Virus record (IMG/VR): IMGVR_UViG_3300031539_005008
Location: 1 to 25,332 of that record
DNA from: a virus
DNA length: 25,332 bases
Reading direction: 5' to 3' (one strand)
The translations under genes were made by a program, and so were the position numbers. The notes under the pieces were generated by a model. That model ran no database searches. It worked only from the letters and a program-made list of their open reading frames with translations, and was not told where the DNA came from. Below, in pieces: positions 2,159 through 17,829 of the stretch (the stretch's first letter is position 1; each line of letters opens with the position of its first letter).

Positions 2159-3751
2159 ATGGAAAATGATATCAAGGATTTGTCAATCCCGCACTGGGTG
2201 ATAGATAACGAGTTCATAAACGAGCGGGGAGAAATCCTTGAGTTCAGGGATCGTCTTTTTCTGTACGACATACTGGCGGACACATCTCAAATCCAAGTGG
2301 TAAAGAAATGTTCTCAGGTCGGGGTTTCGGTGATGGAAACCTTGAAGGCATACTTTGTGGCTCAGAAGGGGAGAATGAATGTCATATATACAATGCCGTC
2401 TGACTCTGACGTTAGTGAGTTTGTCAGAACCAAGGCGGACATGATATTCCAGTCAAACGAGTTGATGAGAAGCCAGTTCAGCAGCGACACTATCGGGCTG
2501 AAGCAGATCGGCGACAGGTTTATCTACTATAAAGGGACACGGTCGAAGACGGCGCCTATATCGACCAGCGCCGATTTATTGATACATGACGAGATAGACA
2601 GAAGCGACCTCGGGATAATAGAAACATACAGATCGAGACTTTCGGCATCTCTATATAAGGGTATATGGTATGTGTCTAACCCAAGTCTGACGGGAATCGG
2701 CGTGGACGAGATCTGGCAGAAATCGGACATGAAAGAATGGTTTATCGCTTGCAATAAATGCGGGGAAATCCAAACCTTGAAGTGGGATGAAAATGTTGAT
2801 GAGATAAAAAAGATTTATGTGTGCAAGAAATGCGGTAAGGAACTGACCAATAACGAAAGGAGAAAGGGAAAGTGGATAGCGACGAACCCCGGCAAGGAAA
2901 TATCGGGATACCATATCTCGCAGATGATGGCGCCATGGCTCTCGGCATTAGAACTGATAAAGGAAAAGAGCGACCGGGGAGAGGAATACTTCAGGAACTT
3001 CATACTCGGAGAACCATACAGCGCAGGAGAGGAAGCCAATGTAAGGCAGGCGATTCTCGATGTGTGGACACCAAAGCCGATTGATGACAAACCGTTCTTT
3101 ATGGGGATTGATATAGGAATCGAGAAACACTATGTCATCGGGTCTCGGGAGGGAATCTTCAATATAGGATTATGTAGAAGCCGGGAAGAACTAGAGGCGA
3201 TTATAGAAAAATACAACCCCATTTGGGTTATGGACTCCGGGCCAGAAAGGACATGGGCAGAAGAGTTTAAAAAGAAATACCCAAAAGGATTCCTGAACTT
3301 CTATCGAAAGGACAAACCCAAAGCCGAAATAATAAAATGGGGAGGGTACAGCAAGGGAGTGGAGGACAAAAAGAACTGGGGATACATCTGGACCGACAGG
3401 ACAAGGATTATCGACAAAACACTTTACGAGATACTATCAGGCAACATCCAGTTTTCTGTGTCCAGAGAGGATTTGGAAAAATACATCAAACATTGGGAAA
3501 GCATGCGGAGAATCATAGAGCAGACACCCGACAAGACGGAGAGATACATCTGGGATTCATCAACCGGAAACGACCACTGGTGCCATGCGACAGTGCTTTA
3601 CTACATAGCCACGCAAAGAGGAAAAGAAAAAATGGAGTTCATTCAGGAGAAAGAACGCAGAGAGGAAATAATCGAAAGGACGCCAGAAGGGTTCAAAATG
3701 AGACCCTTAAAAGAAATAATAGAAAACCGCCAACAAGATGATGAATATTAA
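2159..3751 (+). CDS. terL: terminase large subunit, GpA type
   Basis: 530 aa packaging motor: ATPase that translocates DNA into the procapsid plus nuclease that cuts concatemers. Residues 50-57 (KCSQVGVS) match the deviant Walker A of lambda gpA, where the lysine precedes the loop and is absent from the GxS position. Walker B is LLIHDEID with Asp144/Glu145. A zinc finger of Cys198/Cys201 and Cys222/Cys225 sits between ATPase and nuclease halves, as in the GpA family. The nuclease domain shows Asp318 (MGIDIG), Asp359 (VMDSGPE) and Asp472 in NDHWCHATVLYY, the expected acidic triad. The length is near the family norm (lambda gpA 641). The ATG abuts the previous stop codon, so expression is probably coupled. 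Confidence 0.93.
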   Translation: MENDIKDLSIPHWVIDNEFINERGEILEFRDRLFLYDILADTSQIQVVKKCSQVGVSVMETLKAYFVAQKGRMNVIYTMPSDSDVSEFVRTKADMIFQSNELMRSQFSSDTIGLKQIGDRFIYYKGTRSKTAPISTSADLLIHDEIDRSDLGIIETYRSRLSASLYKGIWYVSNPSLTGIGVDEIWQKSDMKEWFIACNKCGEIQTLKWDENVDEIKKIYVCKKCGKELTNNERRKGKWIATNPGKEISGYHISQMMAPWLSALELIKEKSDRGEEYFRNFILGEPYSAGEEANVRQAILDVWTPKPIDDKPFFMGIDIGIEKHYVIGSREGIFNIGLCRSREELEAIIEKYNPIWVMDSGPERTWAEEFKKKYPKGFLNFYRKDKPKAEIIKWGGYSKGVEDKKNWGYIWTDRTRIIDKTLYEILSGNIQFSVSREDLEKYIKHWESMRRIIEQTPDKTERYIWDSSTGNDHWCHATVLYYIATQRGKEKMEFIQEKERREEIIERTPEGFKMRPLKEIIENRQQDDEY

Positions 3752-3935
3752 TCGGGAAGAAAAAATAAAGGTGGAAGTTAAGATGTTGCTGGACAAAGGA
3801 TTCTTCGACTTAAAAAGCGGACAAGTTATAATAAATAAAAACAACGGAGTGATACAAGACATAAAGTTCATCACCACATTATACAAAAGAGGGAAAGGCA
3901 TTGACAATCCCGTTGGCAATACTATAATAAAATAA
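3738..3935 (+). CDS. small hypothetical protein
   Basis: 65 aa, overlapping the end of the large terminase by 14 nt. It has a charged N-terminus (NREEKIKVEVKMLLDKG) and a beta-rich second half (GQVIINKNNGVIQDIKFITTLYKR). The second half loosely recalls small phage proteins of the DUF2292 kind ('G.v.i..h.G.v..I'), but this is a weak visual match. An alternative start is the second ATG, 3 nt later. It is the last gene before the strong hairpin at 3979-4029, so it probably closes the packaging transcription unit. Confidence 0.6.
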   Translation: MMNINREEKIKVEVKMLLDKGFFDLKSGQVIINKNNGVIQDIKFITTLYKRGKGIDNPVGNTIIK

Positions 3936-3978
3936 TAGAAGCCCTAACCTAAAGCGAAGATAAAACTTCCAACTACAG

Positions 3979-4029
3979 GCGGGCAAAGAGAGAATAGCAG
4001 ATTGCTATTTTGTCTTTGCTCGCTTTTTT
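3979..4029 (+). terminator. intrinsic terminator-like hairpin between packaging and portal genes
   Basis: Two 21-nt arms, 3979-3999 and 4003-4023, pair with two G-U wobbles and one G-G mismatch around a 3-nt loop (GAT), and are followed at once by six T (4024-4029). The outer part pairs GCGGGCAAAG with CTTTGCTCGC. This is a textbook intrinsic terminator and the only hairpin of the window with a clear U-run. It ends only 4 nt before the portal ATG, so it probably also sits in the portal leader. The portal must then be read by partial read-through, antitermination, or a promoter inside the hairpin region. Confidence 0.85.
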
Positions 4030-4033
4030 CATT

Positions 4034-5968
4034 ATGATAATAGACGTTGAAAAGTTAGACGATCAAAAGTTAAGCAGACTCATCGACAACAGATGGGCGG
4101 ATTCTTCCTCTTTATGGTCTGAAATAGAAAAATCATACAAGAAGAACAAAACTATTTGGAAAAGCGATGATTCGACCGTCGCCTCAATCCCGAAGAGAAA
4201 ATCAAAAGTCCGGGATAACAGGTCTTTTCTGGCAATGGAGAGTGTAATAGCGGCCCTAACCGGGAGACCATCGAGGCCGAATGTGATACCCACGAACGGA
4301 AAAGATGAATCGCGTCAAGTGGCGCTCGATTTGCAGGATTTGTTTTTAGAAACATATAAGACATTGCGGGTGAAGAGAAAAATGCGCAGGGGATTAAGAT
4401 GGCTTTTTCTGTCGAAGATGATTGTTCTTAAGATGATCTGGGACAACGACATTGATAACTACAATGTGGCAGTGGTGGACCCGAGAAAGGTAAGATTTCA
4501 TAAAAAATCAACAAACTCTACAGAGACTGACTTCGCCATCGAGGAGATAGACACCAGTATTTCAGACATGATCGACAGATTCCCGGAACAGAAAGAAGAT
4601 ATTTTAAAACAGGTTGGGATGAAAGAGGATGATGCCATGATTAACAACCCGCCGGCAACATACAAAGAAGCATGGATAAACGGCGGTGAATGGGTGGTCT
4701 ATAAGTTCCGCGAGAAGATACTCAAAAAAGAAAAGAACCCTTACTGGGATTGGGAAGGAGTATATTTTACAAACAATGAGTTGAGGAAGTTTGAGACGAT
4801 AGAGACTCCAGGGGAAAGAAAAAAGATGCTCGGGTTGGCGAGACCGATAAGGGGAGCGCGGGCTAAAAAGGCAAACAGGTATCAGAACTATCTGTCAAAT
4901 CATTTCGATAAGCCGAGGCATCCATACATCTTCGCTTCAATGTTGGAGGTGGAGGAAAGACCAATCGGGGAAACATCATTGATGGAACAGGTGAGCCCAT
5001 TGCAGAAGAATGTTAATCAAAGGAAAAGGCAAATAGCGGACAACGCATCGATGGCCCAGGGTAGGTGGAAAGTGGATACGCGTTTTGTAGAAGGGAAAAG
5101 CAAGGGAGAAATCCAGGCGATGAAATCCGACCCGGAAGGAATAATTTACGGCGACGGAGTTCGTGATGGCATTAGTATAGAGAGCGGACGGGATTTGCCG
5201 GTGATGGTGAAAGAAGACCTGATACTTTCAATCCAAGCGATAGATTCCATTTTTGGTACCCAACCGACGTTCCGGGGAGAAAAGGAAGGAAGCGAAACGG
5301 CAACGGGAAGAGCGTTGCTTAGGGAACAGAGCTACCAACGTCTGACCGAGTTAATAGACATAGTAGACGACGTCCACTCGGAGATTTACAACTGGGAACT
5401 TCAGTTCATTAAAGTCAGATATACCGAGACGCATTACACGAAGATATTGGGCAAGGACCGGGCTTTGAGAGTCATCGAAACTATGCGAGATGACTTCTCT
5501 GATGGAATAGACGTCCAGGTCATACCGGGTCAGATGTTGCCCAAGGACAGGGTGTACCGGGCGGAGAGGGCTTTGGAAGGGGTAAAAAGCGGGTTCATGA
5601 TCCCACTCCAGTATTTCGAGGAGGCGGAGTTTGAAAACCCGATGGAAACAGCAAAGCAAGTCGAGATGTACAAGGTGAGTCCGTTCGCGGTGCTGGACAT
5701 GGACCCAGAAGACATAGAATCGCTGAGAAAAGGAATATCCCTGCTCCAAGAGATAGCGCAAGCGACACAACCGGTTGATCCAAGGGCAAAGGCGATAGCG
5801 GACTTGAGGGGTAGAACTCAGCAATTGGTGCAAAGCGACGAGTTTAAAAATCAGCCAATAGAAAAACAACGTCAAATGTTATCGAAGTTAAAAGGCCAGT
5901 TTAATAAGTTAAGCACGGCTAAGCCGGAGGGGGGAACCCCGACAGCTAAACCGGCCGAACAAAAATAA
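4034..5968 (+). CDS. portal protein
   Basis: 644 aa from the ATG at 4034. A TTG eight codons earlier is in frame but lies inside the terminator hairpin and is unlikely. Portal features: an N-terminal helical region with RDNRSFLAMESVIAALTGRP; the 'KMIVLKMIWDND ... VVDPRKVRF' strand set; a wing/clip region with LMEQVSPLQKNVNQRKRQI, common in P22-like and related portals; and a helical crown with YRAERALEGVKSGFM. The last 70 residues are Gln/Lys/Pro rich. It forms the dodecameric ring through which DNA enters and leaves and contacts the terminase. No Shine-Dalgarno sequence precedes the ATG because the hairpin and U-run occupy that space. Confidence 0.88.
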   Translation: MIIDVEKLDDQKLSRLIDNRWADSSSLWSEIEKSYKKNKTIWKSDDSTVASIPKRKSKVRDNRSFLAMESVIAALTGRPSRPNVIPTNGKDESRQVALDLQDLFLETYKTLRVKRKMRRGLRWLFLSKMIVLKMIWDNDIDNYNVAVVDPRKVRFHKKSTNSTETDFAIEEIDTSISDMIDRFPEQKEDILKQVGMKEDDAMINNPPATYKEAWINGGEWVVYKFREKILKKEKNPYWDWEGVYFTNNELRKFETIETPGERKKMLGLARPIRGARAKKANRYQNYLSNHFDKPRHPYIFASMLEVEERPIGETSLMEQVSPLQKNVNQRKRQIADNASMAQGRWKVDTRFVEGKSKGEIQAMKSDPEGIIYGDGVRDGISIESGRDLPVMVKEDLILSIQAIDSIFGTQPTFRGEKEGSETATGRALLREQSYQRLTELIDIVDDVHSEIYNWELQFIKVRYTETHYTKILGKDRALRVIETMRDDFSDGIDVQVIPGQMLPKDRVYRAERALEGVKSGFMIPLQYFEEAEFENPMETAKQVEMYKVSPFAVLDMDPEDIESLRKGISLLQEIAQATQPVDPRAKAIADLRGRTQQLVQSDEFKNQPIEKQRQMLSKLKGQFNKLSTAKPEGGTPTAKPAEQK

Positions 5969-5969
5969 T

Positions 5970-6140
5970 ATGCCATTACCTCACACAACAAACGTAGGAA
6001 AGATTATAAGCGAGCTTAACCAATCAAGAACGAAAAGACCTCGTAAACAAAAAGTTGCAATAGCTTTAAATCAGGCGAGAAAAGCAGGCGCGAACATTCC
6101 ATTAAGGAAAGAAATCGCAAAGCGGGGAAAGAAAGCATAA
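5970..6140 (+). CDS. small basic protein, DUF6496-like
   Basis: 56 aa, ATG one base after the portal stop codon, ending in TAA at 6138-6140. The sequence includes VGKIISELNQSRTKRPRKQK, then VAIALNQARKAGANIP. The phrase '(R/K)KQ.vAIAL..ARKAGA.iP' is characteristic of DUF6496, a family of very small basic proteins frequent in phage virion regions. About one third of the residues are Lys or Arg, so nucleic-acid binding is plausible but not shown. The gene lies between portal and scaffold and would be missed by length cut-offs. Function unknown. Confidence 0.72.
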   Translation: MPLPHTTNVGKIISELNQSRTKRPRKQKVAIALNQARKAGANIPLRKEIAKRGKKA

Positions 6141-6177
6141 TTTTCAAATATTAAGTAACAGTTGTTTCATCAAGCGG

Positions 6178-6209
6178 TTCTCCGAAATCCGCGAGGATCA
6201 TCCGGAGAA
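6178..6209 (+). promoter_or_regulatory. two-tier hairpin with GNRA loop before the scaffold gene
   Basis: TTCTCCG (6178-6184) pairs with CGGAGAA (6203-6209). Inside, ATCC (6187-6190) pairs with GGAT (6195-6198) around a GCGA loop, a GNRA-type tetraloop. It lies in the 94-nt gap between the 56-aa gene and the scaffold gene, 25 nt before its ATG. No T-run follows, so a stabilising or translation-modulating element is more likely than a terminator. Confidence 0.55.
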
Positions 6210-6234
6210 ACGGCAATGAGGCGACCAAAAGAAC

Positions 6235-6936
6235 ATGTCAGACGAGAATGAAGAGATTAACGATTCCGATTTAGGAATCGACGACAAGGGCGGGGAAGGC
6301 GCCCCAACGCCTGTCAAAATCGGCGATAAAGAATATACCGCCGAACAGTTGGCAGAGTATGTAAAAAAGGCGACGGATTACGATGCCTTACTTCCCGAGT
6401 TTACCAAGAAGTCACAGGCATTAGCCGCACTTACCGGTGACAAAAAACTCAATGAGTCGCAAGAAGATCAACCCTCTTTTCTGAAGCCAGGGTGGAAACC
6501 CAAAGACTTCACGGAACTTGGGGAAGCGATCAAGGAGGCGGTTGAATGGGGAGAGAAGAGGTCTCAAAAGGCAACAGAGGAAAAAACCCTCCAATCCCAA
6601 GAGGCCCAGAAAGCGGTGGATAGTTTTGTATCGGAGGTCAAGAAGTCGGACAAGGAGTTCGACGACAAAGAATTCTTCCAATACATTGAACGCCACCGAA
6701 TAAAGGTAGATACCATTGAAGATTTAAAGTCAGTATATTCTGCCTACACCGAAGCCAATGCGGACGGTAAAATGGCCGAGAGAAGGGTACTGCTCGGTAA
6801 AGTAAAAAGAGCATCAGATTCCGTCTCAAAGCCAGGATCCGCAGGAGGCAAACTCCCATACGACGCTAATGAGATTCGTACAAAGAGCACGGGTATAGTC
6901 GAAGCGGCTAAGGAGGCATTATCAAAATTTAAGTAG
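6235..6936 (+). CDS. capsid scaffold protein (putative)
   Basis: 233 aa, strongly acidic N-terminus (SDENEEINDSDLGIDDKG), then VKIGDKEYTAEQLAEYVKKATDYDALLPEF, a pattern widely seen in phage scaffold proteins placed directly before the coat gene. The middle is a long charged helix (residues about 95-150), and the C-terminus is helical and basic (EAAKEALSKFK), as expected for the coat-binding end. It would guide procapsid assembly around the portal and then leave or be degraded. Identification rests on position (portal, scaffold, coat), composition and the N-terminal pattern. No Shine-Dalgarno sequence is visible; the ATG follows CCAAAAGAAC. Confidence 0.78.
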   Translation: MSDENEEINDSDLGIDDKGGEGAPTPVKIGDKEYTAEQLAEYVKKATDYDALLPEFTKKSQALAALTGDKKLNESQEDQPSFLKPGWKPKDFTELGEAIKEAVEWGEKRSQKATEEKTLQSQEAQKAVDSFVSEVKKSDKEFDDKEFFQYIERHRIKVDTIEDLKSVYSAYTEANADGKMAERRVLLGKVKRASDSVSKPGSAGGKLPYDANEIRTKSTGIVEAAKEALSKFK

Positions 6937-6947
6937 ATTTTACAAAA

Positions 6948-7997
6948 ATGACATTTTCAGATGCGGTAAAAACCGTAACACGGGAAACAATCGTGCCGAT
7001 GGTTTCAGACACTGTTCTCAAAGGGAATGTACTTCTTTTGAGGACACTCGGGAACGCCAAAAGCTGGCGGTCTGGTTATCAGTACGATATTCCCATTAAG
7101 TATAAAAAGTCCACCGAGGGAGGAATAGTAGGCCTTGGCGGAACGCTTGATACCTCGAGGCAGGAAACTCGGGTAAAGATGACGTTCCAGCCACAGCGTA
7201 TCCACAAACCGGTGGTTATAGACGACATCGAAGCGGCCGTTAACCAAGGAGACGAGAGAGTCCTTGAGTTGCTGGCTGTTGAGATGGACTCTATCGCACA
7301 GGATTTGATGGATGACTGCGGAGGATATCTCTACACTGGCACCGGAGCGAGCGGAGCTTCATTCGACAGCATATTGAATGCGGCCGATGACTCCACTGTC
7401 TTCGCCTCGTACGGCGGGCAGTTAAGAGCGACCTACACAAGTATTAAGGGATATTATGCAGCGACTATCGGAGCATTAGCCCTTTCCGATTTGTCCACTG
7501 GCTATGACGCGGTGGAGATCGGAGGAGTGGGACCAAGTTTAATAGTGTCAACTCCGACAATATGGTCGGCATACGAGGCACTATTGCAACCGACAGTTCG
7601 CGCCGGATATCAAACTTCGGGATTCCCACAGGTCACCAGGACGGGTGTAGTTTCGAGTACCAACGCATTAAGCGGAGGCGATATAGGATTCAACGCCTTG
7701 TGGTACAGAGGGACTCCGTTCGTAAAGGACGAGAAGTGCACCTCCCAAAAGTTGTTCATGATCAACGAAAAGAACTTCTTCTGGGCAGGATTGGATCTTC
7801 CAGACTACGAGAAGTTTAATACCTCGGCGAGAAACATCGAGGGACCACAGGCATTGCCGATTCCGAAAGGATTCAACTGGTCAGGAATGTTGAGATCAAC
7901 AAACCAACCGGCTGAAGTCGGACATATGTACCTGGTCGGAAACTGGATGTCAGACGACCCGAGAAGATGCGGTCAGTTGACCGGCATAACAGGTTAA
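6948..7997 (+). CDS. major capsid protein, HK97-fold (putative)
   Basis: 349 aa. The order of portal, scaffold and this gene, together with the length, points to the coat protein. The sequence shows an N-terminal helix with ETIVPMVSDTVLKGNVLLLRTLG, an exposed beta-rich stretch with YQYDIPIKYKK and MTFQPQRIHKPVVIDDIEA, a long central helix (ERVLELLAVEMDSIAQDLMDD), and a C-terminal part with TPFVKDEKC and KLFMINEKNFFWAG. The last element resembles the 'P-loop/A-domain' end of many phage coats ('...i.flN...l'). This pattern is typical of N4- or P22-like coats of environmental podoviruses. The start lacks a Shine-Dalgarno site (ATTTTACAAAA before ATG). The GC and codon choice look more optimised than in the next gene. 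Confidence 0.85.
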   Translation: MTFSDAVKTVTRETIVPMVSDTVLKGNVLLLRTLGNAKSWRSGYQYDIPIKYKKSTEGGIVGLGGTLDTSRQETRVKMTFQPQRIHKPVVIDDIEAAVNQGDERVLELLAVEMDSIAQDLMDDCGGYLYTGTGASGASFDSILNAADDSTVFASYGGQLRATYTSIKGYYAATIGALALSDLSTGYDAVEIGGVGPSLIVSTPTIWSAYEALLQPTVRAGYQTSGFPQVTRTGVVSSTNALSGGDIGFNALWYRGTPFVKDEKCTSQKLFMINEKNFFWAGLDLPDYEKFNTSARNIEGPQALPIPKGFNWSGMLRSTNQPAEVGHMYLVGNWMSDDPRRCGQLTGITG

Positions 7998-8021
7998 TAA
8001 AGTAACATGTTTGCTCTTTAC

Positions 8022-8050
8022 CGGGCGGGGAGATAAAACTCCCCGACCCG
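8022..8050 (+). promoter_or_regulatory. stable hairpin after the capsid gene
   Basis: CGGGCGGGGAG (8022-8032) pairs with CTCCCCG (8039-8045) and CCCG (8047-8050), with one bulged A at 8046 and the loop ATAAAA: an 11-bp stem, nearly all G-C. It starts 24 nt after the capsid stop and ends 22 nt before the next ATG. No U-run follows. It may protect the 3' end of capsid mRNA, slow transcription, or lower expression of the downstream gene. Confidence 0.65.
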
Positions 8051-8072
8051 AGAGAGAACAACTAAAATAAAC

Positions 8073-9086
8073 ATGAGAGCAAGAGATTATATACCAGCCC
8101 TTAGATTTGGAGCAAGGATTTATCCTGATGATTTGGCCACTCCATTAACTTTCGGTAGATATTGGTATGTCGATGGAGATAATGGTGTCGATAACGACAA
8201 TAGTGGACAATCTATAGAGAAAGCGAAATTGACCATTCAGGCGGCCGTAACTGCAACAGATGCCGGAGACGTAATATTCGTTAAGACTTTGGCGATGTCT
8301 ACTGGAGCACTAGATCCCGTAAGTTATGACGAAACTATTATTATTCCGCCAGATAAGGATAGATTATCTCTCATAGGTGTCGGCACAGGGAGAACTCAAG
8401 GAGGACTTCCTCAAATTAAAATAGGAGCTGGATCAACGGCAATGTTAACGGTTAGAGCACCCGGTTGTTATATCTCTAATCTTGGATTTAACGGAGCAAG
8501 TTCAACTGGCGGGGGAATTTTGCTTGACGATGATGGGTCTACTAAAACTGCTTTTGGAACGACAATAGAAGGTTGTCATATCAAGAACTGCGCAGGGGCT
8601 ACGAGCGCCGATACTGGTGGAGGGATAATGTGGGCCGCGACTGGTGGTGCTTGGCAATCTCGTATTCAAAATTGTAGCTTTTTTAGATGTATGGGTGGAG
8701 TTGTTTTGATGGGGACAACTGGATCACGACCTGCAGATGTGGTTATAGAAGATTCTATCTTCTACACAAACGATACTGCATTGGTGGATTGCGATGTTTA
8801 CCTGATGGGTGGAAGTGGAGTAGATGGATTGCTTATCAATCGTTGTGTATTTGCCTCAAGAACTGTTCCTGCTTATGCCGGCACATCGAGATACCTGAAA
8901 CTGACTGGTTGCTCAGATGGATTGATAAGTAATAGCGTTGTTAACTGTCTTGGCAATGTGACAGCTACCGAACTTACTTGGGGGACTGCGGGAACAGGTG
9001 GATTTATCCCAACAGGAGTTGGAATAGCAAATTGCTACGGAGTATCAACGACTGCTGGAGAAACTGGAGAGATTAACAATCTCTAA
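8073..9086 (+). CDS. right-handed beta-helix virion protein
   Basis: 337 aa. The opening YWYVDGDNGVDNDNSGQS, then KAKLTIQAAVTATDAGDVIFV, is the standard entry into pectate-lyase-like right-handed beta-helices. Repeated short turns follow (SLIGVGTGRTQGG; CYISNLGFNGASS; TIEGCHIKNCAGA; RIQNCSFFRCMGG; VVIEDSIFYTNDT; LLINRCVFAS; GLISNSVVNC), each a helix coil with N/C stacks. Such proteins bind or cut polysaccharide as tailspikes or capsid-surface fibres. Being directly behind the coat gene, it could be a head decoration/fibre rather than a tailspike; no catalytic residue can be assigned by eye. Codons are more A/T-ending than in the capsid gene, hinting at a separate origin. Confidence 0.78.
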   Translation: MRARDYIPALRFGARIYPDDLATPLTFGRYWYVDGDNGVDNDNSGQSIEKAKLTIQAAVTATDAGDVIFVKTLAMSTGALDPVSYDETIIIPPDKDRLSLIGVGTGRTQGGLPQIKIGAGSTAMLTVRAPGCYISNLGFNGASSTGGGILLDDDGSTKTAFGTTIEGCHIKNCAGATSADTGGGIMWAATGGAWQSRIQNCSFFRCMGGVVLMGTTGSRPADVVIEDSIFYTNDTALVDCDVYLMGGSGVDGLLINRCVFASRTVPAYAGTSRYLKLTGCSDGLISNSVVNCLGNVTATELTWGTAGTGGFIPTGVGIANCYGVSTTAGETGEINNL

Positions 9087-9097
9087 TCTTCACTTAT

Positions 9098-9256
9098 ATG
9101 ACAAAACCCAAAAAAATAGAGAAAACTAAAGCTCCAAAAGAGAAACTGGAATTTGAGAAGATTTTGGGAGAGTGCCACGACGGTCAGGACTACAAACTTC
9201 AGATGAAAGACGGATCGGTAAAGATTGTTAGTAAGAAAGAGGTGGGCGGAGAATAG
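9098..9256 (+). CDS. small basic hypothetical protein
   Basis: 52 aa, ATG at 9098, TAG at 9254-9256. Lys-rich N-terminus (TKPKKIEKTKAPKEKLEFEK), then ILGECHDGQDYKLQMKDGS and a short basic end (KIVSKKEVGGE). The second half resembles a small beta-hairpin ('...G..y.v.l.DG....v'). The family is not recognised. The gap to the upstream stop codon is only 11 nt. Coding is supported by continuous charged composition and by fitting exactly between the beta-helix gene and the structured RNA leader that follows its stop. Confidence 0.5.
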   Translation: MTKPKKIEKTKAPKEKLEFEKILGECHDGQDYKLQMKDGSVKIVSKKEVGGE

Positions 9257-9396
9257 AACCTTCCTTGTGGGTTCGCCCAGGCCCTTTATGGGGCCTGGGA
9301 CGAGCTAATAAGGTTCGCAACATCGAGTTTCCTCAATGGCGATCGAGCCAGTGGAGGTGAAAGGTCGGATGCTGTAATTTAAATAGAAAAACTAAA
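9257..9396 (+). promoter_or_regulatory. structured intergenic leader with two hairpins
   Basis: Beginning on the base after the TAG: AACCTT (9257-9262) pairs with AAGGTT (9310-9315). It encloses a perfect 9-bp stem, CCCAGGCCC (9276-9284) with GGGCCTGGG (9291-9299), loop TTTATG, extended by TCG/CGA across one bulged A. A second hairpin follows: CCTC (9331-9334) with GAGG (9354-9357), and inside it TGGC (9337-9340) with GCCA (9347-9350), loop GATCGA. The rest is A/T-rich up to the ATG at 9397. It looks like a folded 5' leader or processing element; no known riboswitch class was recognised. Confidence 0.55.
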
Positions 9397-10101
9397 ATGA
9401 AACAGATTACATTTCAATCAGTTTTCGATACGCCGGCTGTGAAGATGGCCAATTCTAATGAGATCGGGATGACTCCAGACGGCAGACTCTGGCATTATCT
9501 TTATGCGACAGAAGCCATAACCAAACACATGGTGACCAGTAGGCCAGCAGTCACTGGAGTAGACACGGTTTCATCGTCTTTGGAACCAGGTAGCACGACC
9601 AACTACATCTATATTACCGAAGCAGCTGCTGGATGGACTGTTGGAGCTTACCAAGATCATTGGGTTATAGTTGATTCGGGGACTGGAGTCGGTCAGTTGG
9701 GAAAGATAAAAAATAATACCGCTGACACATTGGAACTCTATTCTGACTATGCATTCACGACAGTATTGGCGGTGGCCGATTCGGACATTACCATTCTTCA
9801 TCAACCGGATGCGGAAAAAATCGCCGTCACCAATCAGTACACCGAACCCAACGGGATAGCGCAAGTGTCATTCGCTGCATACGATTACGGATGGTTTCTC
9901 GTTCGAGGAATCGGTGGAGTGATTATGGGAACCGGAGCTGGGACAATCAACTATAACGCTTGTCCTGGAGATGACACCGAAGGGTATGCCGTAAATATGG
10001 ATGCTGGAGATACGTTAGAGGAGTTTGCTCCACTTGGAAGACTTGTAGCCGTTTCAGACACAGCAGATAAGGCGTGTCTGATAGACGTAAAGATAATATA
10101 G
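9397..10101 (+). CDS. virion protein with small beta-domain (decoration-type, putative)
   Basis: 234 aa. The N-terminus (KQITFQSVFDTPAVKMANSN) is followed by DGRLWHYLYATEAI. Residues about 60-130 form a compact beta-domain (AYQDHWVIVDSGTGVGQLGKI, then NTADTLELYSDYAF). The C-terminal part, AAYDYGWFLVRGIGGVIMGT, and LGRLVAVSDTADKACLIDVKI, matches a pattern common in small structural proteins beside capsid genes of environmental phages ('...yGwvq..G...', then a decay to 'iG..l.....g...v.l'). Likely a head decoration or minor capsid protein; no enzymatic signature. The start has only A-rich sequence upstream (AAAACTAAA). Confidence 0.6.
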   Translation: MKQITFQSVFDTPAVKMANSNEIGMTPDGRLWHYLYATEAITKHMVTSRPAVTGVDTVSSSLEPGSTTNYIYITEAAAGWTVGAYQDHWVIVDSGTGVGQLGKIKNNTADTLELYSDYAFTTVLAVADSDITILHQPDAEKIAVTNQYTEPNGIAQVSFAAYDYGWFLVRGIGGVIMGTGAGTINYNACPGDDTEGYAVNMDAGDTLEEFAPLGRLVAVSDTADKACLIDVKII

Positions 10102-10110
10102 AACTTTCTC

Positions 10111-10194
10111 CCAGCGACCTGCTTGTGGCTGGTCGTTGGATAGAGGGTTTTAAACCCTAAAGGTCGTATTACTTTTAATCATTAAAGATTAAAG
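10111..10194 (+). promoter_or_regulatory. three consecutive hairpins between virion genes
   Basis: First: CCAGCGACC (10111-10119) pairs with GGTCGTTGG (10131-10139), one G-U. Second: AGGGTTT (10144-10150) with AAACCCT (10152-10158) around a single T, a near-palindrome. Third: CTTTTAATC (10172-10180) with GATTAAAG (10187-10194), loop ATTAAA. All lie within the 104-nt gap between stop 10101 and ATG 10206. No clean U-run follows the first stem. Confidence 0.55.
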
Positions 10195-10205
10195 TTTACA
10201 CGAAT

Positions 10206-10706
10206 ATGAATATAGCAGAAAGAGAAGCGGAAGAAATCGGACGGAGGATAGTCCGATTCACAAATATAGACAACGAAAGTTTCACCCACTCTTATCATGG
10301 AGTGTCTATCACCATCCGCGCCGGAGAAAGTTATATAGGAAGATTTCCTGAGTGTAATCATCTTGCCACTCATCTGGCCAGGAAGATGCTTTCAAGGGAA
10401 GCCAAAAAAAAGGTTTCCAGAAATGAGCCGGTAAAACTTTGGACACCAGAGCAGGTGGAAGAATACAGAGGCAGGATCCTAACTCCTATGGGGAACGAGG
10501 CGCCATCCTCACCTCCGACCGCGGAGGAAAAAAGAAAGGAGGACTTAAAAAAGATTGAGCATGAGTTTCCTCCATCTCCTACTTCTCCGGTCACTAAAAA
10601 GGATGTGATAGAAGAACTGAAAAAGCGTGGAGTGGATGCCGATGTGAAGAAATCACTAAAGGAACTTTTACAGGATCTCATGGATCTCGAAGCGCAGGGA
10701 AAATAA
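10206..10706 (+). CDS. virion-region protein with C-terminal HeH/SAP-like helices
   Basis: 166 aa. The N-terminal part (IVRFTNIDNESFTHSYHGVS, then ITIRAGESYIGRFPECNHLA and HLARKMLSREA) matches a small protein often found after the capsid gene in environmental phages ('f.np...ft..w.g..y.i.pGe......a.hla.hla...l'). The middle is a Pro/Ser/Glu linker (residues about 95-125). The end, VTKKDVIEELKKRGVDADVKK, then SLKELLQDLMDLEAQGK, looks like a SAP/HeH-type helix-extension-helix. Role unknown; the helical tail could bind DNA or a head protein. The start lacks a Shine-Dalgarno site. Confidence 0.62.
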   Translation: MNIAEREAEEIGRRIVRFTNIDNESFTHSYHGVSITIRAGESYIGRFPECNHLATHLARKMLSREAKKKVSRNEPVKLWTPEQVEEYRGRILTPMGNEAPSSPPTAEEKRKEDLKKIEHEFPPSPTSPVTKKDVIEELKKRGVDADVKKSLKELLQDLMDLEAQGK

Positions 10707-10713
10707 GGAATAA

Positions 10714-10742
10714 AAGGGGGGTGGCAATTTGCCCCTCCCCTT
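10714..10742 (+). promoter_or_regulatory. G/C-rich hairpin between virion genes
   Basis: AAGGGGGGTGGC (10714-10725) pairs with GCCCCTCCCCTT (10731-10742), with one mismatch and one wobble, loop AATTT. It begins 7 nt after the stop codon of the preceding gene and ends 47 nt before the next ATG. The six consecutive G are notable in this A-rich intergenic DNA. It is followed by CCGG rather than T's, so termination is not obvious. Confidence 0.6.
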
Positions 10743-10789
10743 CCGGAGATAAAGGTCAAATAGAAAGGTTTTAATAAAGTAATAATAAA

Positions 10790-11113
10790 ATGTCCACACC
10801 AAAACAATTACACGGAGAACCTTTTCAAGTTACGGCAACCCACGCAACAGCGGCATCGGCATCGAAGGCGGTCGCAACAGGAAAGGTTCATTATATCACT
10901 GACGCCTCGGCATCCTCGGACAAGGCCGGAGCCATTCTACTTATAAAGGACGGAACGACGGTCATATGGCAAGTTCAGATGGGGGCCAATGGAAGCGTAA
11001 ACCTTCACTTCGTCCAACCATTAAAGGGAACATCCGGTGCGGCAGTTAGTGTCGATGTCGATGGCACGAGCGCATGCAAGGCGAATATAGCTGGATTTAC
11101 CGTTAAACAATAA
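10790..11113 (+). CDS. small virion (decoration-type) protein
   Basis: 107 aa, Ala/Ser/Thr/Gly-rich and almost free of aromatic residues except in short strands. The order is VTATHATAASASKAVATGKV, HYITDASASSDKAGAILLIK, TTVIWQVQMGANGSVNLHF, PLKGTSGAAVSVDVDGTSAC, then AGFTVKQ. This is an all-beta protein, resembling small capsid or tail accessory jelly-rolls of environmental phages, but no named family is certain. It is separated from the next gene by 4 nt. The start context AATAATAAAATG has no Shine-Dalgarno sequence. Confidence 0.6.
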   Translation: MSTPKQLHGEPFQVTATHATAASASKAVATGKVHYITDASASSDKAGAILLIKDGTTVIWQVQMGANGSVNLHFVQPLKGTSGAAVSVDVDGTSACKANIAGFTVKQ

Positions 11114-11117
11114 AAAA

Positions 11118-11687
11118 ATGTCGTTATTAGCAGACGTTTTCAACGGAATAAAGCAGAGGTTCGTTTATGATCCCACGATAAAGGCATTTGACAACCTTTT
11201 CTTCAAGAAAGTTTCCGGAACTCCGAGCATGGTCACAGGAGATATAAGGTTAACCTCGGCCGTAATATCGAGTTACTCCCAATATACTTATGGGGATTTT
11301 GAGTTTATAGTTAATGTTCCCGTAGCGCCGACGGTCGCCCAATCAAAGTATTGGGGAATGAGGAACACCGCCACGGAAAGGGGGGCGATGTTTTTCGACA
11401 TAACCAATGACATATTCTCCTTCAAGAGCTATGACAACGACGGGAATCTGGTTAGCACGACGATACCGTGGAACCAGGCGAGCCAGACATGGAATGGAAA
11501 CTTCATCAAGTACAAGATAGTTTGGGACGAGTCGGGGGTAAAGGCGTATGCCGACGAGTTGTTGGTCGCCACCCATAAGGTGGGAGATCACAGTCTGCCT
11601 CTGCCCCTTAAGGTTGCAAACGGAAACGCAGATAACATGGACATAGATTATATTTTAATGGCTAAAATAGGATCATTCGTATCATGA
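11118..11687 (+). CDS. concanavalin A-like lectin/glucanase-fold protein
   Basis: 189 aa. Strand order and spacing fit a ConA-like/LamG beta-sandwich: RLTSAVISSYSQYTYGDFEF (first sheet), SKYWGMRNTATERGAMFFDI (the typical 'fWGlr...g..fei'), TWNGNFIKYKIVWDESGVKA, then YADELLVATHKV (the typical 'y.I.W....v.fyvdg.lvatH'). GH16 catalytic acids (ExDxxE) are not visible, so carbohydrate binding is more likely than hydrolysis. A short N-terminal helix (SLLADVFNGIKQRF) may dock it to the virion. It overlaps the next gene by ATGA. Confidence 0.68.
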   Translation: MSLLADVFNGIKQRFVYDPTIKAFDNLFFKKVSGTPSMVTGDIRLTSAVISSYSQYTYGDFEFIVNVPVAPTVAQSKYWGMRNTATERGAMFFDITNDIFSFKSYDNDGNLVSTTIPWNQASQTWNGNFIKYKIVWDESGVKAYADELLVATHKVGDHSLPLPLKVANGNADNMDIDYILMAKIGSFVS

Positions 11688-12022
11688 CAATAATTATTTT
11701 AGTTTTAATAATTATATTTTCAGGGACAGTCGTATTTTACCCAAGATACTTATCAAAAATCATCTCAAAGGCGTTCTCGCAGGACACAAAGCGACTGGCG
11801 GACAATTCCGAGAAGTTTGCAGAAGAGGTAAAAAATCTGACGGAAAACCAAAAAAGGATGATAGATGGATATTTCCATAGCATAGAGATATATCTTAAAG
11901 AAACATCCAGTATCCTCGAGAAGTTAAAAGAGAGAGACGAAATAATAGCAACGGCGATTTCTGACGGAAATGTCAAGCTGGGTGCTTTTTTAGAAACATT
12001 AAGGGAAGAAAAGAATAAATGA
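11684..12022 (+). CDS. membrane-anchored coiled-coil protein
   Basis: 112 aa. Residues about 2-19 (TIIILVLIIIFSGTVVFY) are a single N-terminal transmembrane segment. From about residue 30 the protein is a long amphipathic helix (DNSEKFAEEVKNLTENQKRM, then EIYLKETSSILEKLKERDEI), probably a coiled coil. Both ends overlap neighbours by ATGA (11684-11687 and 12019-12022), linking it to the lectin-fold gene and the signal-peptide adhesin gene. It could be a membrane anchor or partner for the adhesin, or a holin-like protein displaced from the lysis group; family not recognised. Confidence 0.62.
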   Translation: MTIIILVLIIIFSGTVVFYPRYLSKIISKAFSQDTKRLADNSEKFAEEVKNLTENQKRMIDGYFHSIEIYLKETSSILEKLKERDEIIATAISDGNVKLGAFLETLREEKNK

Positions 12023-14610
12023 GAAAGATACTGCATATTTTAATATTATCAATCCTGGTTCCATTTTCTGTCCTGGCATTGTTATCTCCAGGTAATGACG
12101 GGATATTACAACCAGGGATTTTGTATTTAGACGATGCTAACGTTTATTTTACCGATTCTAATTGGCAGTTAGGATCAAACACCATTAGAATAGCCAAAGG
12201 TTGGTTCACTGATCTGGACGTTTCCGGGGTTTTTACTCTTGGAGGAACAGTCGGGCCTGGAGGAATAAATCTACCAGATAACGTAAAAGCGATATTTGGA
12301 ACAGGAAACGATGCCGCCGTCTATTATAATGGAACGGATTTAATAATAGACCCGAAAGAAGTGGGGGCAGGAGTAGTTAATCTTAATGGAGGCAATTTCA
12401 CCACCACAGGCACTCTCGGGGCTGGCATATTAAACACAGGAAAGATTTATTTAAACACTACTTCTATATTAGATGGAGTACAAGCAGGACAAGCAACAAT
12501 TACAGGTCATATTATTCCTGTAGCTACTGGAAGCTATAATTTAGGAAGTGCTTCTCGGAGATGGTATGGACTATATACTTCAGACCTAATACATACTACA
12601 GGCACTATAACAGGAATGTCTCTAACAGATGGGACAGCAACTTTATCGGGGGGGAATATAACAGGAATGGGTAATATCACAGGAACAGATGTTGATATTA
12701 GTGCTGGAACAGGCAATTTCACCACCACAGGCACTCTCGGAGCAGGAGCAGCCACAGTAACTTCACTTAACGCAGGTTCAGGGGCGATTACAACATCAGG
12801 TAATATAAGTGCGACAGGAGCGGGGCAATTCCTCGCTGGAACAGGGACTTACGCTTATAGTTTCACAGGCGACCCTGACACTGGATTTGGGACACAAGGA
12901 GTGGCGAACTATCTTGCTTTTATTGCTGGGGGGTCTACGAAATTAGTTATATCGTCAACTGGGGTTACATTTCCAGCGGGCGGGCCAATCGGGGTGTATG
13001 ACAGCACGGCAAACGCCGCTACAATAAATATCTGGCGGGGGCTGAAAAGAAACAGCACCAACTATCCAAGTTTAAATCAGGAGATAGTGGAACTTCAAGG
13101 CAGAACTTGGACAGGAACGGGAGGGACAGATGTTGATACTGGGAGTATCGCTTTGGTTTGCGATGAAAACCACACCGCAACTGCGAGGGGAACAAGGTGG
13201 GAATTTTACACGACTCCGAATACAAACTCTGTGCCCGCATTGGTTTGGACAATGGACAGCGACGGGACTCTGATGTCAGGGGCTCTCGGAGTAAGCGCGT
13301 ATAACATTTTAACCGCAGGCAATATAGGGGGGGCATCTCTTTCGTTGGTATCATTAACCAGTTTTATCAGTATGGGGAACGGGAATACCGTTGCCGCGTT
13401 AAACTCGGGCGGTTTTGGATTCTCCAATACCGTAAGCGGGGCTAATTCTTTTGGGTTTGGAGATACCAATTTCGTAACTGGAGTTACCTCAATGGCGGAA
13501 GGGACTATGAATCTTGTAAGCGGAGGCAGTTCAGTCGGATTCGGAGAATCCAATGTCGTAAGCGGGAACATTTCCTCTGGGATAGGTTCTGGCGTCAGGT
13601 CATTAAAGGAAGCCACTCACACAATCGGTTACACCAATGTCGTCAATAACACTCCGAGCAATTTCGCCGTAGGGTTCGGGGCAAAAGATTTTGAAGTGAG
13701 AGCCAACTCCGCAAGGGTTCTTGGGGATTTATTCGTTGCGAATAAGAGTTCTGTCGGCGCGGAATTGGTCACAAACGGAAACTTCACGGGGAGCGCCGCC
13801 GGGTGGACGCTTGGAGCGGGCTGGCAGTATGTTTCCAATCTTGTAAGAAAGAATGCCGATGGCGTGGGAACGCTTGCCCCGACCGTTCCGATTACGATAG
13901 TGGCGGGAAATACCTATTACGTAAAGTTCACGATATCCTCTTGGACGGTGGGTTCTATGACTCCCACTATCGGGGGGGTTACATTGGACACGGTTGCCGC
14001 CAGCGGACAATACAAAGAAGTTATTACGGCTACTACAACCGACAATCTTGTATTTACCCCGAATGAAGCAAACTCAAGATTTTATATTGACACAGTTTCG
14101 GTTACGCAGATTACGGGAGGGAATTTAACTGCGTTGGGAGATTTGGTTTTCGCTGGGGCTGGTTCAGGGCTTCCTTACGGGGAAATATACGGACACGATG
14201 TTGATGAAGATTTGGTTATGGCGGCACAAGACACTTGGTATCAGTGTATATCTTTTGACACTAACGGATTGAATAATCTTACAACGCTTGACCACACAAA
14301 CGACCATATCACGATAGTAAAAACAGGAGTTTATAAATTATTTATGAACTGCTCGGTTTCTTCGGCAACGGCGGAAGATTGGGTTATAAGCCCTTTTAAA
14401 AATAACGGGGCGACGCAATTCGCTTGTGCCGATGTTCATTTCACATCAATAGCAGGAGCGAAAGAAATCACAGCCAGCAATAGTTGCTTGGTTTCGCTGA
14501 CGGCAGGGGACACAATAGAGGTTTGGGCTATGAGGACGACAAGCGGGGCGGCTTCAAAGACCCTTATAATCAACAGCGTCGGATTAAATTTAGTAATGAT
14601 TGGAGGTTAA
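12019..14610 (+). CDS. modular adhesin / receptor-binding fibre with signal peptide
   Basis: 863 aa. It starts with a classical signal peptide (MRKILHILILSILVPFSVLA, cleavage likely after VLA at residue 20), unusual for a virion protein. Then come fibre-type repeats: GNFTTTGTLGAG occurs twice, and NLGSASRRWYGLYTSDLI near residue 173 is a common tail-fibre phrase. YSFTGDPDTGFGTQGVANYL follows. Residues about 450-527 resemble YadA-head repeats (GFSNTVSGANSFGFGDTNFV, then GFGESNVVSGNISSGIGSG). Residues about 580-694 look like a CBM4/9-type carbohydrate-binding module (LVTNGNFTGSAAGWTLG). Residues about 714-863 resemble a C1q/TNF jelly roll (HDVDEDLVMAAQDTWYQ). Likely a trimeric surface or host-binding protein. 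The signal peptide leaves open whether it is in the virion or displayed on the infected cell. Confidence 0.78.
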   Translation: MRKILHILILSILVPFSVLALLSPGNDGILQPGILYLDDANVYFTDSNWQLGSNTIRIAKGWFTDLDVSGVFTLGGTVGPGGINLPDNVKAIFGTGNDAAVYYNGTDLIIDPKEVGAGVVNLNGGNFTTTGTLGAGILNTGKIYLNTTSILDGVQAGQATITGHIIPVATGSYNLGSASRRWYGLYTSDLIHTTGTITGMSLTDGTATLSGGNITGMGNITGTDVDISAGTGNFTTTGTLGAGAATVTSLNAGSGAITTSGNISATGAGQFLAGTGTYAYSFTGDPDTGFGTQGVANYLAFIAGGSTKLVISSTGVTFPAGGPIGVYDSTANAATINIWRGLKRNSTNYPSLNQEIVELQGRTWTGTGGTDVDTGSIALVCDENHTATARGTRWEFYTTPNTNSVPALVWTMDSDGTLMSGALGVSAYNILTAGNIGGASLSLVSLTSFISMGNGNTVAALNSGGFGFSNTVSGANSFGFGDTNFVTGVTSMAEGTMNLVSGGSSVGFGESNVVSGNISSGIGSGVRSLKEATHTIGYTNVVNNTPSNFAVGFGAKDFEVRANSARVLGDLFVANKSSVGAELVTNGNFTGSAAGWTLGAGWQYVSNLVRKNADGVGTLAPTVPITIVAGNTYYVKFTISSWTVGSMTPTIGGVTLDTVAASGQYKEVITATTTDNLVFTPNEANSRFYIDTVSVTQITGGNLTALGDLVFAGAGSGLPYGEIYGHDVDEDLVMAAQDTWYQCISFDTNGLNNLTTLDHTNDHITIVKTGVYKLFMNCSVSSATAEDWVISPFKNNGATQFACADVHFTSIAGAKEITASNSCLVSLTAGDTIEVWAMRTTSGAASKTLIINSVGLNLVMIGG
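12391..12740 (+). repeat. 29-bp direct repeat inside the adhesin gene
   Basis: A 29-bp segment at 12391-12419 (beginning GGCAATTTCACCACC) is repeated exactly at 12712-12740, 321 bp apart and in the same reading frame (107 codons). Both copies encode GNFTTTGTLG. The region between is fibre-repeat sequence, so this is probably a duplicated fibre module kept identical at DNA level by recent duplication or recombination. Confidence 0.85.
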
Positions 14611-14623
14611 TAAAATAAAAAAT

Positions 14624-14815
14624 ATGACATACATAAAAATATCAGACATAGATTTCAAAGAAGTAAAGTCGCAGGAAATTATTTACAATATCCCGAAGCT
14701 TAAAAGACAGAAGGAAATCCTTTTGGAGCAAAAAAATATCACGGGGAAAAAGATAGAAGAAATTGACGCTTTACTCTTGGAAGCGGAAAAATTAGGAATA
14801 AAAATAACAGAATAA
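14624..14815 (+). CDS. small helical protein
   Basis: 63 aa from the ATG at 14624. An in-frame TTG at 14600 is inside the previous gene and poorly placed. The sequence is helical and charged: IPKLKRQKEILLEQKNITG, then KIEEIDALLLEAEKLGI, probably a two-helix coiled coil. Small proteins of this shape often sit directly behind phage fibre genes, where some act as fibre chaperones, but no family is recognised. The stop codon overlaps the start of the next gene by one base (TAATG), so translation is probably coupled. A-rich leader, no Shine-Dalgarno sequence. Confidence 0.62.
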   Translation: MTYIKISDIDFKEVKSQEIIYNIPKLKRQKEILLEQKNITGKKIEEIDALLLEAEKLGIKITE

Positions 14816-15078
14816 TGGAAAAAAACTGGGAAGATTTTATTTATAAGAAAGTCAGCTTATGGACTTCAATTATTGCTCTTTTAGGAGTGGTAATCACCGC
14901 TACCTTTTTTGTGGCGGGAATACAAACAGAACTGGCTTTGATAAATCAGAAACTGGACAACCACATATCGCATATGGGCGAAGTAGTTGATGAAAACAAT
15001 AAAGTGATTAAAGAAAATCGGGATAATGTGGTAAAATTAAAGGTGGATATTGCCGAAATAAAAGCACTTTTAAAGTAG
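14815..15078 (+). CDS. holin-like / XhlA-like membrane protein
   Basis: 87 aa. It has an N-terminal amphipathic stretch (EKNWEDFIYKKVSLWTS), one transmembrane segment (residues about 18-36, IIALLGVVITATFFVAGIQ) and an amphipathic tail with heptad-like pattern (IAEIKALLK). Small size, one membrane segment and a helical charged end resemble XhlA-type or class III phage holins. Its position 0.8 kb before an M23 peptidase supports a lysis role. Alternative: a generic membrane anchor. The gene is separated from the peptidase gene by the structured region 15090-15640, as if something had been inserted into the lysis group. Confidence 0.6.
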   Translation: MEKNWEDFIYKKVSLWTSIIALLGVVITATFFVAGIQTELALINQKLDNHISHMGEVVDENNKVIKENRDNVVKLKVDIAEIKALLK

Positions 15079-15092
15079 GTTCTTAATTTTGC

Positions 15093-15266
15093 GCTGGGTT
15101 TAAACTGAACGCCGTCAACGAATACGGCTTGGGCATAGACACGCCCAGAGGGCAAAAGCCCAGAGTTCTATGCCCGAGAAATAACAGAGGTAGAAAGTCC
15201 TTTAGCACTCCTTACTGGCAGGTAGCGTTAAATCGCAAGTTCGCTATAAAATGTTTTAAGCCCAGC
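15093..15266 (+). ncRNA. candidate multi-stem structured RNA
   Basis: A closing stem of GCTGGG (15093-15098) with CCCAGC (15261-15266), continued by TTAAAC with GTTTTAA, brackets three internal elements. They are GCCGT (15111-15115) with ACGGC (15124-15128); a 12-bp stem CTTGGGCATAGA (15128-15139) with TCTATGCCCGAG (15167-15178); and TAGCG (15223-15227) with CGCTA (15242-15246). Inside the 12-bp stem, GGGC (15150-15153) can pair either with GCCC at 15143-15146 or with GCCC at 15158-15161, a switch-like choice. An overlapping open frame (to 15314) has no ribosome site and looks accidental. It matches no RNA family I know. Confidence 0.4.
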
Positions 15267-15276
15267 ACCAAATTCG

Positions 15277-15624
15277 GAACAGTTCTTTTAAAATTGGGGT
15301 CAAGTCAAGTTTAGTTAAGTCAAAAATATGTCAGAAATAAAGTCATTAAATTGTGAGTTAGTAAGCAATCAAGATATTAGTTATCTTGAGGGAAAGTTAA
15401 AAACATTTTTAGATAGTTTAGGACTGCCAGAAAAACAAGAAAAAGCGACAAAAGATATTATTCAATCAATAATCTGGGAATGGTATTGCTTTATCAGGGA
15501 TACTTTTACCGACCACTTAATAGAAAAAAGGGATTGGTATGAAAAAAATAATGATAAAGAGCATAACCAAGATAGATAACAATTAACATCCAAGATTTTG
15601 ACCCCAATTTTAAGAGAATTGCTC
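15277..15624. repeat. 27-nt inverted repeat flanking a small gene
   Basis: 15277-15303 and 15598-15624 are inverted copies with three differences in 27 positions. The core TTAAAATTGGGGTCAA is exact. As RNA, two of the three differences are G-U pairs, leaving one mismatch, so the transcript could form a long stem closing a loop of about 294 nt that holds the 83-aa gene. The pattern could be the ends of a small non-autonomous mobile element or a conserved RNA stem. No transposase is present and no target-site duplication was identified. Confidence 0.7.
15328..15579 (+). CDS. hypothetical protein enclosed by the inverted repeat
   Basis: 83 aa, family not recognised. It is helical, with ISYLEGKLKTFLDSLGLPEK then IIQSIIWEWYCFIRDTFTDH, and a hydrophilic end (KRDWYEKNNDKEHNQDR). 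The W/Y/F-rich segment (residues about 48-60) could be buried or touch a membrane but is not a full transmembrane segment. It is A/T-richer than its neighbours, has no Shine-Dalgarno sequence (AAGTCAAAAATATG), and lies wholly between the arms of the 27-nt inverted repeat. Possible accessory (cargo) gene; no function claimed. Confidence 0.6.
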   Translation: MSEIKSLNCELVSNQDISYLEGKLKTFLDSLGLPEKQEKATKDIIQSIIWEWYCFIRDTFTDHLIEKRDWYEKNNDKEHNQDR

Positions 15625-15641
15625 TTTCAAGGAGAAAAGAA

Positions 15642-15812
15642 ATGTCAGAGATACCGAGAGTTGATTTGAGAAAGGTGGTGTGCGACCGCCAATATTGCCC
15701 CGTGAGAGGACAATTCGGAAGATGCTATCTGGATATCTTCCGAGGGTGCCATCTCCATCTGGGCTGGCGGAAGATTGCCGTCCAAGACGGCGACAAGCTT
15801 ACCGCTAAATAA
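15642..15812 (+). CDS. small cysteine-rich protein
   Basis: 56 aa, ATG at 15642, TAA at 15810-15812. It has one of the best ribosome sites in the window, AAGGAG at 15629-15634, 7 nt from the ATG. Cys14, Cys19, Cys28 and Cys36 with His37/His39 (VVCDRQYCPVRGQFGRC; RGCHLHLG) could bind a metal. The beginning SEIPRVDLRKVVCDRQYCP is basic. Codon choice is G/C-richer than in the gene before it. It starts right after the right arm of the inverted repeat and before the M23 peptidase gene. Family not recognised. Confidence 0.55.
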   Translation: MSEIPRVDLRKVVCDRQYCPVRGQFGRCYLDIFRGCHLHLGWRKIAVQDGDKLTAK

Positions 15813-15817
15813 CCAAA

Positions 15818-15843
15818 GGGGGTGAGAAATAAATCCCACCCCC
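15818..15843 (+). promoter_or_regulatory. hairpin directly before the M23 peptidase gene
   Basis: GGGGGTG (15818-15824) pairs with CACCCCC (15837-15843). After one A-C mismatch, two more pairs close on the loop AATAAA. The stem fills most of the 39-nt gap between stop 15812 and ATG 15852 and ends 8 nt before the start, leaving no room for a Shine-Dalgarno site. It probably limits translation of the lytic enzyme or stabilises the transcript. An in-frame GTG at 15822 lies inside the stem and is an unlikely start. Confidence 0.6.
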
Positions 15844-15851
15844 AAGATTCT

Positions 15852-17792: not shown

Positions 17793-17793
17793 A

Positions 17794-17823: not shown

Positions 17824-17829
17824 AATAAA

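Follow-up and report, generated by a model that had tools for sequence, protein, structure and literature searches.

Here we show that several intergenic gaps in the head-gene cluster of an uncultivated virus, IMG/VR record IMGVR_UViG_3300031539_005008 (25,332 bases, hereafter the window), carry RNA structures that are conserved on the sense strand, that lie near an AUG and that stay attached to one particular gene each, namely the gene for a scaffold-type protein, gene 8073 and gene 9397. To judge from sequence comparison, the scaffold-gene leader represents an RNA family not described before and present in dozens of related viruses. Relatives were gathered by protein scans of viral contigs with alignments of the capsid, the portal and the gene-9397 product, which returned approximately 110 related loci, duplicates among them; all compared sequences are metagenomic. 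Profile searches recovered the order terL-portal-scaffold-capsid-(8073)-9397-10206 in about 85 loci, within the reach of the contigs; elements of this kind occupy the orthologous gaps of these relatives, and capsid identity among the phages used for the gap comparison was 35-100%.

The scaffold leader spans positions 6161-6226 on the + strand and, in the window, comprises an outer helix, a CAAGC/GGCA internal loop, a variable helix, a second internal loop and an apical hairpin. Across the family the plan is 5'-GAY-CAAGC-X-CA-GYC-loop-GRC-CAAG-X'-GGCA-RUC-3', followed by an A-rich spacer and the AUG, and both internal loops are the same motif, CAA opposite A, in inverted orientation. The two loops lie 12-13 nucleotides (nt) apart on the 5' strand in 47 of 52 sequences and 13-14 nt apart on the 3' strand in 39 of 52; the intervening helix varies freely in sequence, and the structure usually ends in a small cap, with GAAA, GCAA and GUAA the most frequent apical loops. 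Covariation was scored on 54 sequences aligned with MAFFT: 88.1% of cells paired, as against 28-48% with slid partners, and changes on both sides were found in 16 of the 17 pairs. Compensatory cells numbered 174, compared with 54.5 in shuffles, which ignore the kinship of the sequences, and at most 44 in the slid-partner controls, which retain it. The 3' end of the leader falls 8-12 nt ahead of the first ATG in most of 49 loci, upstream of the initiation region as in operators of the T4 gp43 type, and the motif keeps this distance to the scaffold-type gene even where the upstream gene changes.

The gene that follows (6235-6936, + strand, 233 amino acids) lies between the portal and capsid genes. 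Its product has an acidic, disordered N-terminus and is modelled as all-helical, with a C-terminal helix (predicted local distance difference test score 75), so that by position and by its predicted character as a small, acidic, helical protein it would be a scaffolding protein; searches for a family match that would name it gave none.

The leader is specific to this position. A covariance model, R1, was searched on both strands of 80 loci (861 kb) and gave one clear match in 72 of them, about 18 of which lay outside the training set; the sole extra match had an E-value of 0.18, the E-values of such models being rough. R1 places the window's member at 6163-6223 (47.3 bits). Because the clade of the window has diverged, with UCAU/AUGA as its outer helix and AA/CAU as its upper loop, a further model, R3, was built from 45 sequences with this clade left out. 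Its sole match in the window is again 6163-6223 (22.3 bits, E 8e-4) and it also finds the close relatives L003 and L012, results that place the window in the new family defined by R1 as a diverged member with an altered upper loop. A gene-blind DNA pattern, CAGTCN{3,6}GACCAAGN{6,18}GGCAGTC, searched against the full set of 2.9 million IMG/VR contigs, yielded 42 matches, of which 31 sit 7-13 nt before a scaffold-type gene beside portal or capsid genes of the family; ten of the remaining 11 are without the outer half and one is within a coding region. Several more IMG/VR contigs of the phage family (among L122-L160) were reached solely through this RNA pattern. In L139 (2147-3064), from another phage, the pattern falls within the protein-coding part of a scaffold-like gene (GDQAEASSPSDQAPEAVP), which we treat as a coincidence. 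Neither the window nor 10 element-bearing relatives had a match to any Rfam 15 family at the curated gathering cut-off, and searches of the window by E-value gave matches at chance level only, ruling out a known Rfam family as the identity of the elements. Nor did full-text literature or structured-RNA screens contain a described counterpart, subscription papers being outside their coverage.

A second leader, at 8012-8059 on the + strand, precedes gene 8073 (8073-9086, + strand), which follows the major capsid protein gene (6948-7997, + strand; phrog_9953, E 2e-28). Its consensus, YYUUKAC-NNNN-stem-A-N'N'N'N'-AGAGRG, describes a lower stem, then an unpaired KAC that faces one A, a helix of 4-5 bp and a variable top, and the short helix has been exchanged completely among relatives (CGGG/CCCG, UUGG/CCAA, UGGG/CCCA). 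Over 21 sequences 95.7% of cells pair, as against 38-61% with slid partners, and there are 38 compensatory cells compared with 13.6 in shuffles. Model R2, which scores the window's element at 42.1 bits, matches 34 loci up to an E-value of about 0.3. In the loci checked, the element stands 5-44 nt (mostly 8-19) before an open reading frame (ORF) with the N-terminal peptide DYxPAxKYG or EDxIPVVKFxGLN, the window's own version being RDYxPAxRFG; in two of 29 loci no ORF with either peptide was found near the element. The short distance is held even where the ORF lies 200-475 nt from the capsid gene, which ties the element to the gene downstream. The product of gene 8073 is probably a virion protein. 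In many relatives the genes that follow the capsid gene have nothing but this short N-terminal peptide in common, their bodies being variable, a pattern that would suit a peptide anchoring interchangeable decoration or fibre proteins to the capsid.

Gene 9397 (9397-10101, + strand), a conserved head-cluster gene with homologues in 70 loci, has a leader of two domains, both on the + strand. The first, D1 (9263-9313), is a CCUUGU..AAUAAGG stem with a variable top and shows compensatory changes in 8 of 22 pairs over eight copies; further copies stand before the leader of the 8012 type in L003 and L004. The second, D2 (9317-9377), consists of a helix P1, a conserved UUU/UGAAAGGUCG loop and a helix P2. 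The UGAAAGGUCG strand is invariant, compensatory changes were found in 16 of 19 pairs over nine sequences, and compensatory cells number 42 compared with 15 in shuffles. The leader of gene 10206 (10106-10203, + strand) contains three hairpins, the first with a CUUGUGG loop and compensatory changes in 7 of 16 pairs (five copies), the third adjoining the ATG. More distant relatives carry different conserved structures before genes 9397 and 10206, also with compensatory changes, and it therefore seems that the provision of a leader RNA at these two genes is older than the particular motif now found there.

Folding of whole gaps on the + strand, each against 200 dinucleotide shuffles, places these leaders in a wider setting. 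A preliminary description of the window had reported eight G/C-rich stems, in almost every gap, as a repeated RNA-level device. All eight stems are present where it placed them, and seven of the eight gaps fold far better than their shuffles: 3936-4033 (z -5.4), 6141-6234 (-3.8), 7998-8072 (-7.0), 9257-9396 (-5.4), 10102-10205 (-4.6), 15079-15327 (-3.2) and 15813-15851 (-3.6). The eighth, 10707-10789 (-0.9), is not above chance. By comparison, 116 coding windows of 100 nt gave a mean z of -0.32 (standard deviation 1.24), with 2.6% below -3. Some gaps are unstructured: the same test found neither stem nor fold in gaps 762-823 (z +0.2), 15580-15641 (+0.9) and 17793-17829 (-0.3). Several of the stems also turned out to be parts of bigger structures that had been overlooked: the stem at 6178-6209 is the top of the structure across 6161-6226, that at 9276-9299 tops a 51-nt stem, after which comes the second domain at 9317-9377, and that at 10111-10139 opens a series of three hairpins.

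Covariation among relatives, on which the preliminary description had let its proposal depend, was sought and is strong. An RNA-level role is upheld by this covariation and by an excess of G-U over A-C pairs; a single device is not, each gap having its own conserved motif. One device shared by all gaps was rejected, as R1 and R2 each match one gap of the window and no other gap in it. The best-studied motifs move together with the downstream gene. This also disposes, for the scaffold and 8073 leaders, of 3'-end protection of the upstream gene, one of the roles suggested, because the motifs at 6178 and 8022 keep to the downstream gene though the upstream neighbour or its distance varies. That the leaders set the dosage of virion proteins is plausible. 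In five alignments, G-U exceeds A-C by 65 to 24 on the sense strand, columns with G-U as the commonest pair being excluded from the count. Since the pairs combine this excess with covariation, it is the sense RNA, not the DNA, that is kept, and the excess rules against a DNA cruciform. Although some stems are strong on the minus strand too, the chance that the elements are cruciforms or accidents of sequence is negligible, contradicted as it is by the G-U count, by covariation over many lineages and by the single R1 match per locus.

The mechanism that we infer from these patterns, with about an even chance of being right, is that the leaders are protein-bound translational operators, the scaffold one being read by a dimer, perhaps of the scaffold protein itself. 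Each of these gene-specific 5'-leader RNAs would fold shortly before a single gene for a virion or assembly protein, and the start codon would stay outside the fold, within a single-stranded, A-rich stretch. The inverted CAA/A loops would form the site for a protein dimer, a reading suggested by their identity, their inverted orientation and their separation of about one helical turn within a helix whose sequence is otherwise free. The near-invariance of the loop letters, in viruses whose scaffold proteins, among distant members, are only 20-28% identical to that of the window, suggests that the loops are recognised directly, and the scaffold protein would be the likeliest reader. Free scaffold would then shut off its own translation until it is consumed in procapsids, and D2 and the 8012 element may do likewise for their own genes. 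Covariation in three independent elements (scaffold, 8012 and D2), with slid controls far lower, supports the operator reading, as do the short distance to the AUG, the constant spacing of the scaffold loops, the outcome of the gene-blind scan, the attachment of the 8012 element to its gene and the other conserved leaders that relatives carry before 9397 and 10206. Four observations weigh against it. The start codon lies outside the structure, and repression would therefore need steric blocking; the perfect two-fold symmetry is a feature of the relatives and not of the window's phage, since the clade of the window has a changed upper loop; R3 misses four of the six close relatives (L004-L007) at E-values up to 5; and neither family search nor structure model revealed a recognised RNA-binding domain in the scaffold-type protein. 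A broader form of this proposal, possible though decidedly tentative, is a stoichiometry circuit for the whole virion, in which scaffold, 8073, 9397 and 10206 would each have an operator read by its own product or by an assembly intermediate, unassembled protein would stop its own translation, much as ribosomal proteins do, and the scaffold dimer would bind through the inverted CAA/A loops.

The main rival, which we consider rather unlikely, is that the elements are processing sites at which RNase III or another endonuclease cuts the late transcript between genes to yield defined, stable messenger RNA ends. The elements do sit in gaps and are absent at overlapping genes, their stems are irregular and of about 20 bp, the two loops of the scaffold element have a fixed spacing, D1 and the first hairpin of the 10206 leader resemble plain stems, and the enzyme is itself a dimer. 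However, a sequence-tolerant nuclease would not need a letter-conserved motif that differs from gene to gene; moreover, the elements stay with the gene downstream, never far from its AUG, and in most sequences the scaffold element has just 3 bp below and above the loops. The leaders might instead be passive aids to translation, stems that open the A-rich start region, replace a Shine-Dalgarno sequence or shield the messenger without a specific protein reader. In the window, Shine-Dalgarno-like sequences precede most genes before the terminator ahead of the portal gene and none from the portal gene to gene 11118, barring one GAGG that lies in the scaffold leader's own stem. In relatives, however, Shine-Dalgarno use is low at most genes, terminase included, and uncommon before most head genes, and passive aids would require neither invariant loop letters nor gene-specific motifs, so that we regard this explanation as unlikely. 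The conserved loops imply recognition without naming the reader, and one or more leaders could be read by another phage or host protein, such as a ribosomal protein or a late regulator; a motif for each gene would demand several such readers, no candidate was found, and the idea seems to us distinctly improbable.

The gap ahead of the portal gene (4034-5968, + strand; phrog_156, E 3e-15), downstream of the TerL gene (2159-3751), is organised differently from the operator-like leaders, with a promoter followed by a conserved box, a small hairpin that covaries and, last, a strong terminator. The promoter (3901-3928, + strand) is a consensus sigma-70 sequence, TTGACA-16-TATAAT, that matches at 12 of 12 positions and lies within the end of ORF 3738-3935. 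Just past the predicted transcription start is the box GCCCUAACC (3941-3949, + strand), identical in L003, L005, L006, L012 and L013 and replaced by GCCCTAATC in the distant L015. The element at 3977-4029 (+ strand) has the G/C stem and U-run of an intrinsic terminator, being a long stem followed by T6, with covariation in six sequences; its T-run stops 4 nt short of the portal ATG, and a terminator-like hairpin with a T-run precedes the portal gene in 55 of 68 loci. Since a further promoter would not fit in the gap, the portal gene must be transcribed through the terminator, and antitermination or attenuation is the natural inference; the first gap is most likely such a switch for the whole cluster. 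Attenuation, also raised in the preliminary description, thus suits this stem and does not fit the others. That all elements act on transcription, as terminators or antitermination RNAs, is highly improbable: the arrangement ahead of the portal gene would favour it, but, as noted earlier for the window, a U-run on the + (coding) strand follows the first stem and none of the other seven, and the others end beside start codons. Two near-perfect promoters face each other at 3878-3928, that on the + strand and one on the minus strand at 3907-3878 (11 of 12 matches), and an antisense transcript from the latter into the end of the terminase gene is possible.

Further head-cluster genes in the window, which is podovirus-like in the gene content of this cluster, include 9098, 10206 and others beyond. 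The single G/C hairpin after gene 10206 (10713-10743, + strand), which does not rise above shuffles in the window, has counterparts of different sequence in L005, L006 and L007. Farther downstream, a long structured RNA with a GCUGGGUUUAAA/UUUUAAGCCCAGC closing stem (15090-15268, + strand; z -3.2) was searched for homologues and Rfam matches and gave none, for which reason it was left out of the covariation analysis. It directly precedes a 27-nt inverted repeat (..AAAATTGGGGTCAA / TTGACCCCAATTTT..), at 15277-15303 and 15598-15624, around a small ORF (15328-15579). Repeat and ORF together resemble a small mobile cassette, and in another viral contig, L162, TTGACCCC likewise follows a distant homologue of the ORF. 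The last stem, a hairpin before an M23 peptidase gene (15818-15843, + strand; z -3.6), is terminator-like on the minus strand. Contigs with relatives in metagenome-assembled genomes carry the names Scalindua, Woesearchaeota and Caldithrix and are probably phage contigs put in these bins by chance; a TM7 phage, with a capsid identity of 33%, is among the nearest named phages.

To our knowledge, the balance of scaffold, capsid and accessory proteins in tailed phages is largely unexplained, and feedback by the P22 scaffold has been described without a defined RNA target. The scaffold leader family may reveal how such viruses balance their building blocks. Here several RNA families outside Rfam each accompany a single head-cluster gene in dozens of phages, and their exact loops make the question testable by reporter assay without growing a phage. 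They also indicate that conserved RNA families overlooked by gene annotation lie in the intergenic gaps of uncultivated phages.

The portal gap resembles the late-promoter and terminator antitermination systems of lambda (pR'-tR', with Q) and HK022 (put), in having a late promoter, a terminator just ahead of the late genes and a conserved sequence at the transcript start; in contrast to these, the terminator directly abuts the portal ATG, and no antiterminator was identified here. The late transcript of T7 is cut at RNase III sites, which are likewise irregular stems in late intergenic gaps, and the RNase III dimer binds about two turns of double-stranded RNA; the leaders described here differ in their gene-specific invariant loops and their short, fixed distance to the AUG. 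Autogenous leaders of ribosomal protein genes are also gene-specific and match supply to assembly, whereas the genes here encode virion components and the leaders are without a match in Rfam. The P22 scaffold, studied by Casjens and co-workers, reportedly represses its own synthesis post-transcriptionally, dimerisation is a property of the scaffold proteins in phages such as P22, and there too the scaffold gene belongs to a head-gene operon for which post-transcriptional control was proposed, although we know of no RNA operator for it. The operators of genes 43 and 32 in T4 and RB69 are also structured RNAs upstream of a start codon and conserved among related phages: T4 gp43 and gp32 repress translation by binding to structured leaders that precede the start codons of their own genes (PMC3014915). 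The hairpin operator of gp43 has key loop letters, as the leaders of the window do (PMC3014915). Those operators serve replication proteins, whereas here several head-assembly genes would each own one, and the scaffold element, unlike them, contains one internal loop twice, as a two-fold repeat.

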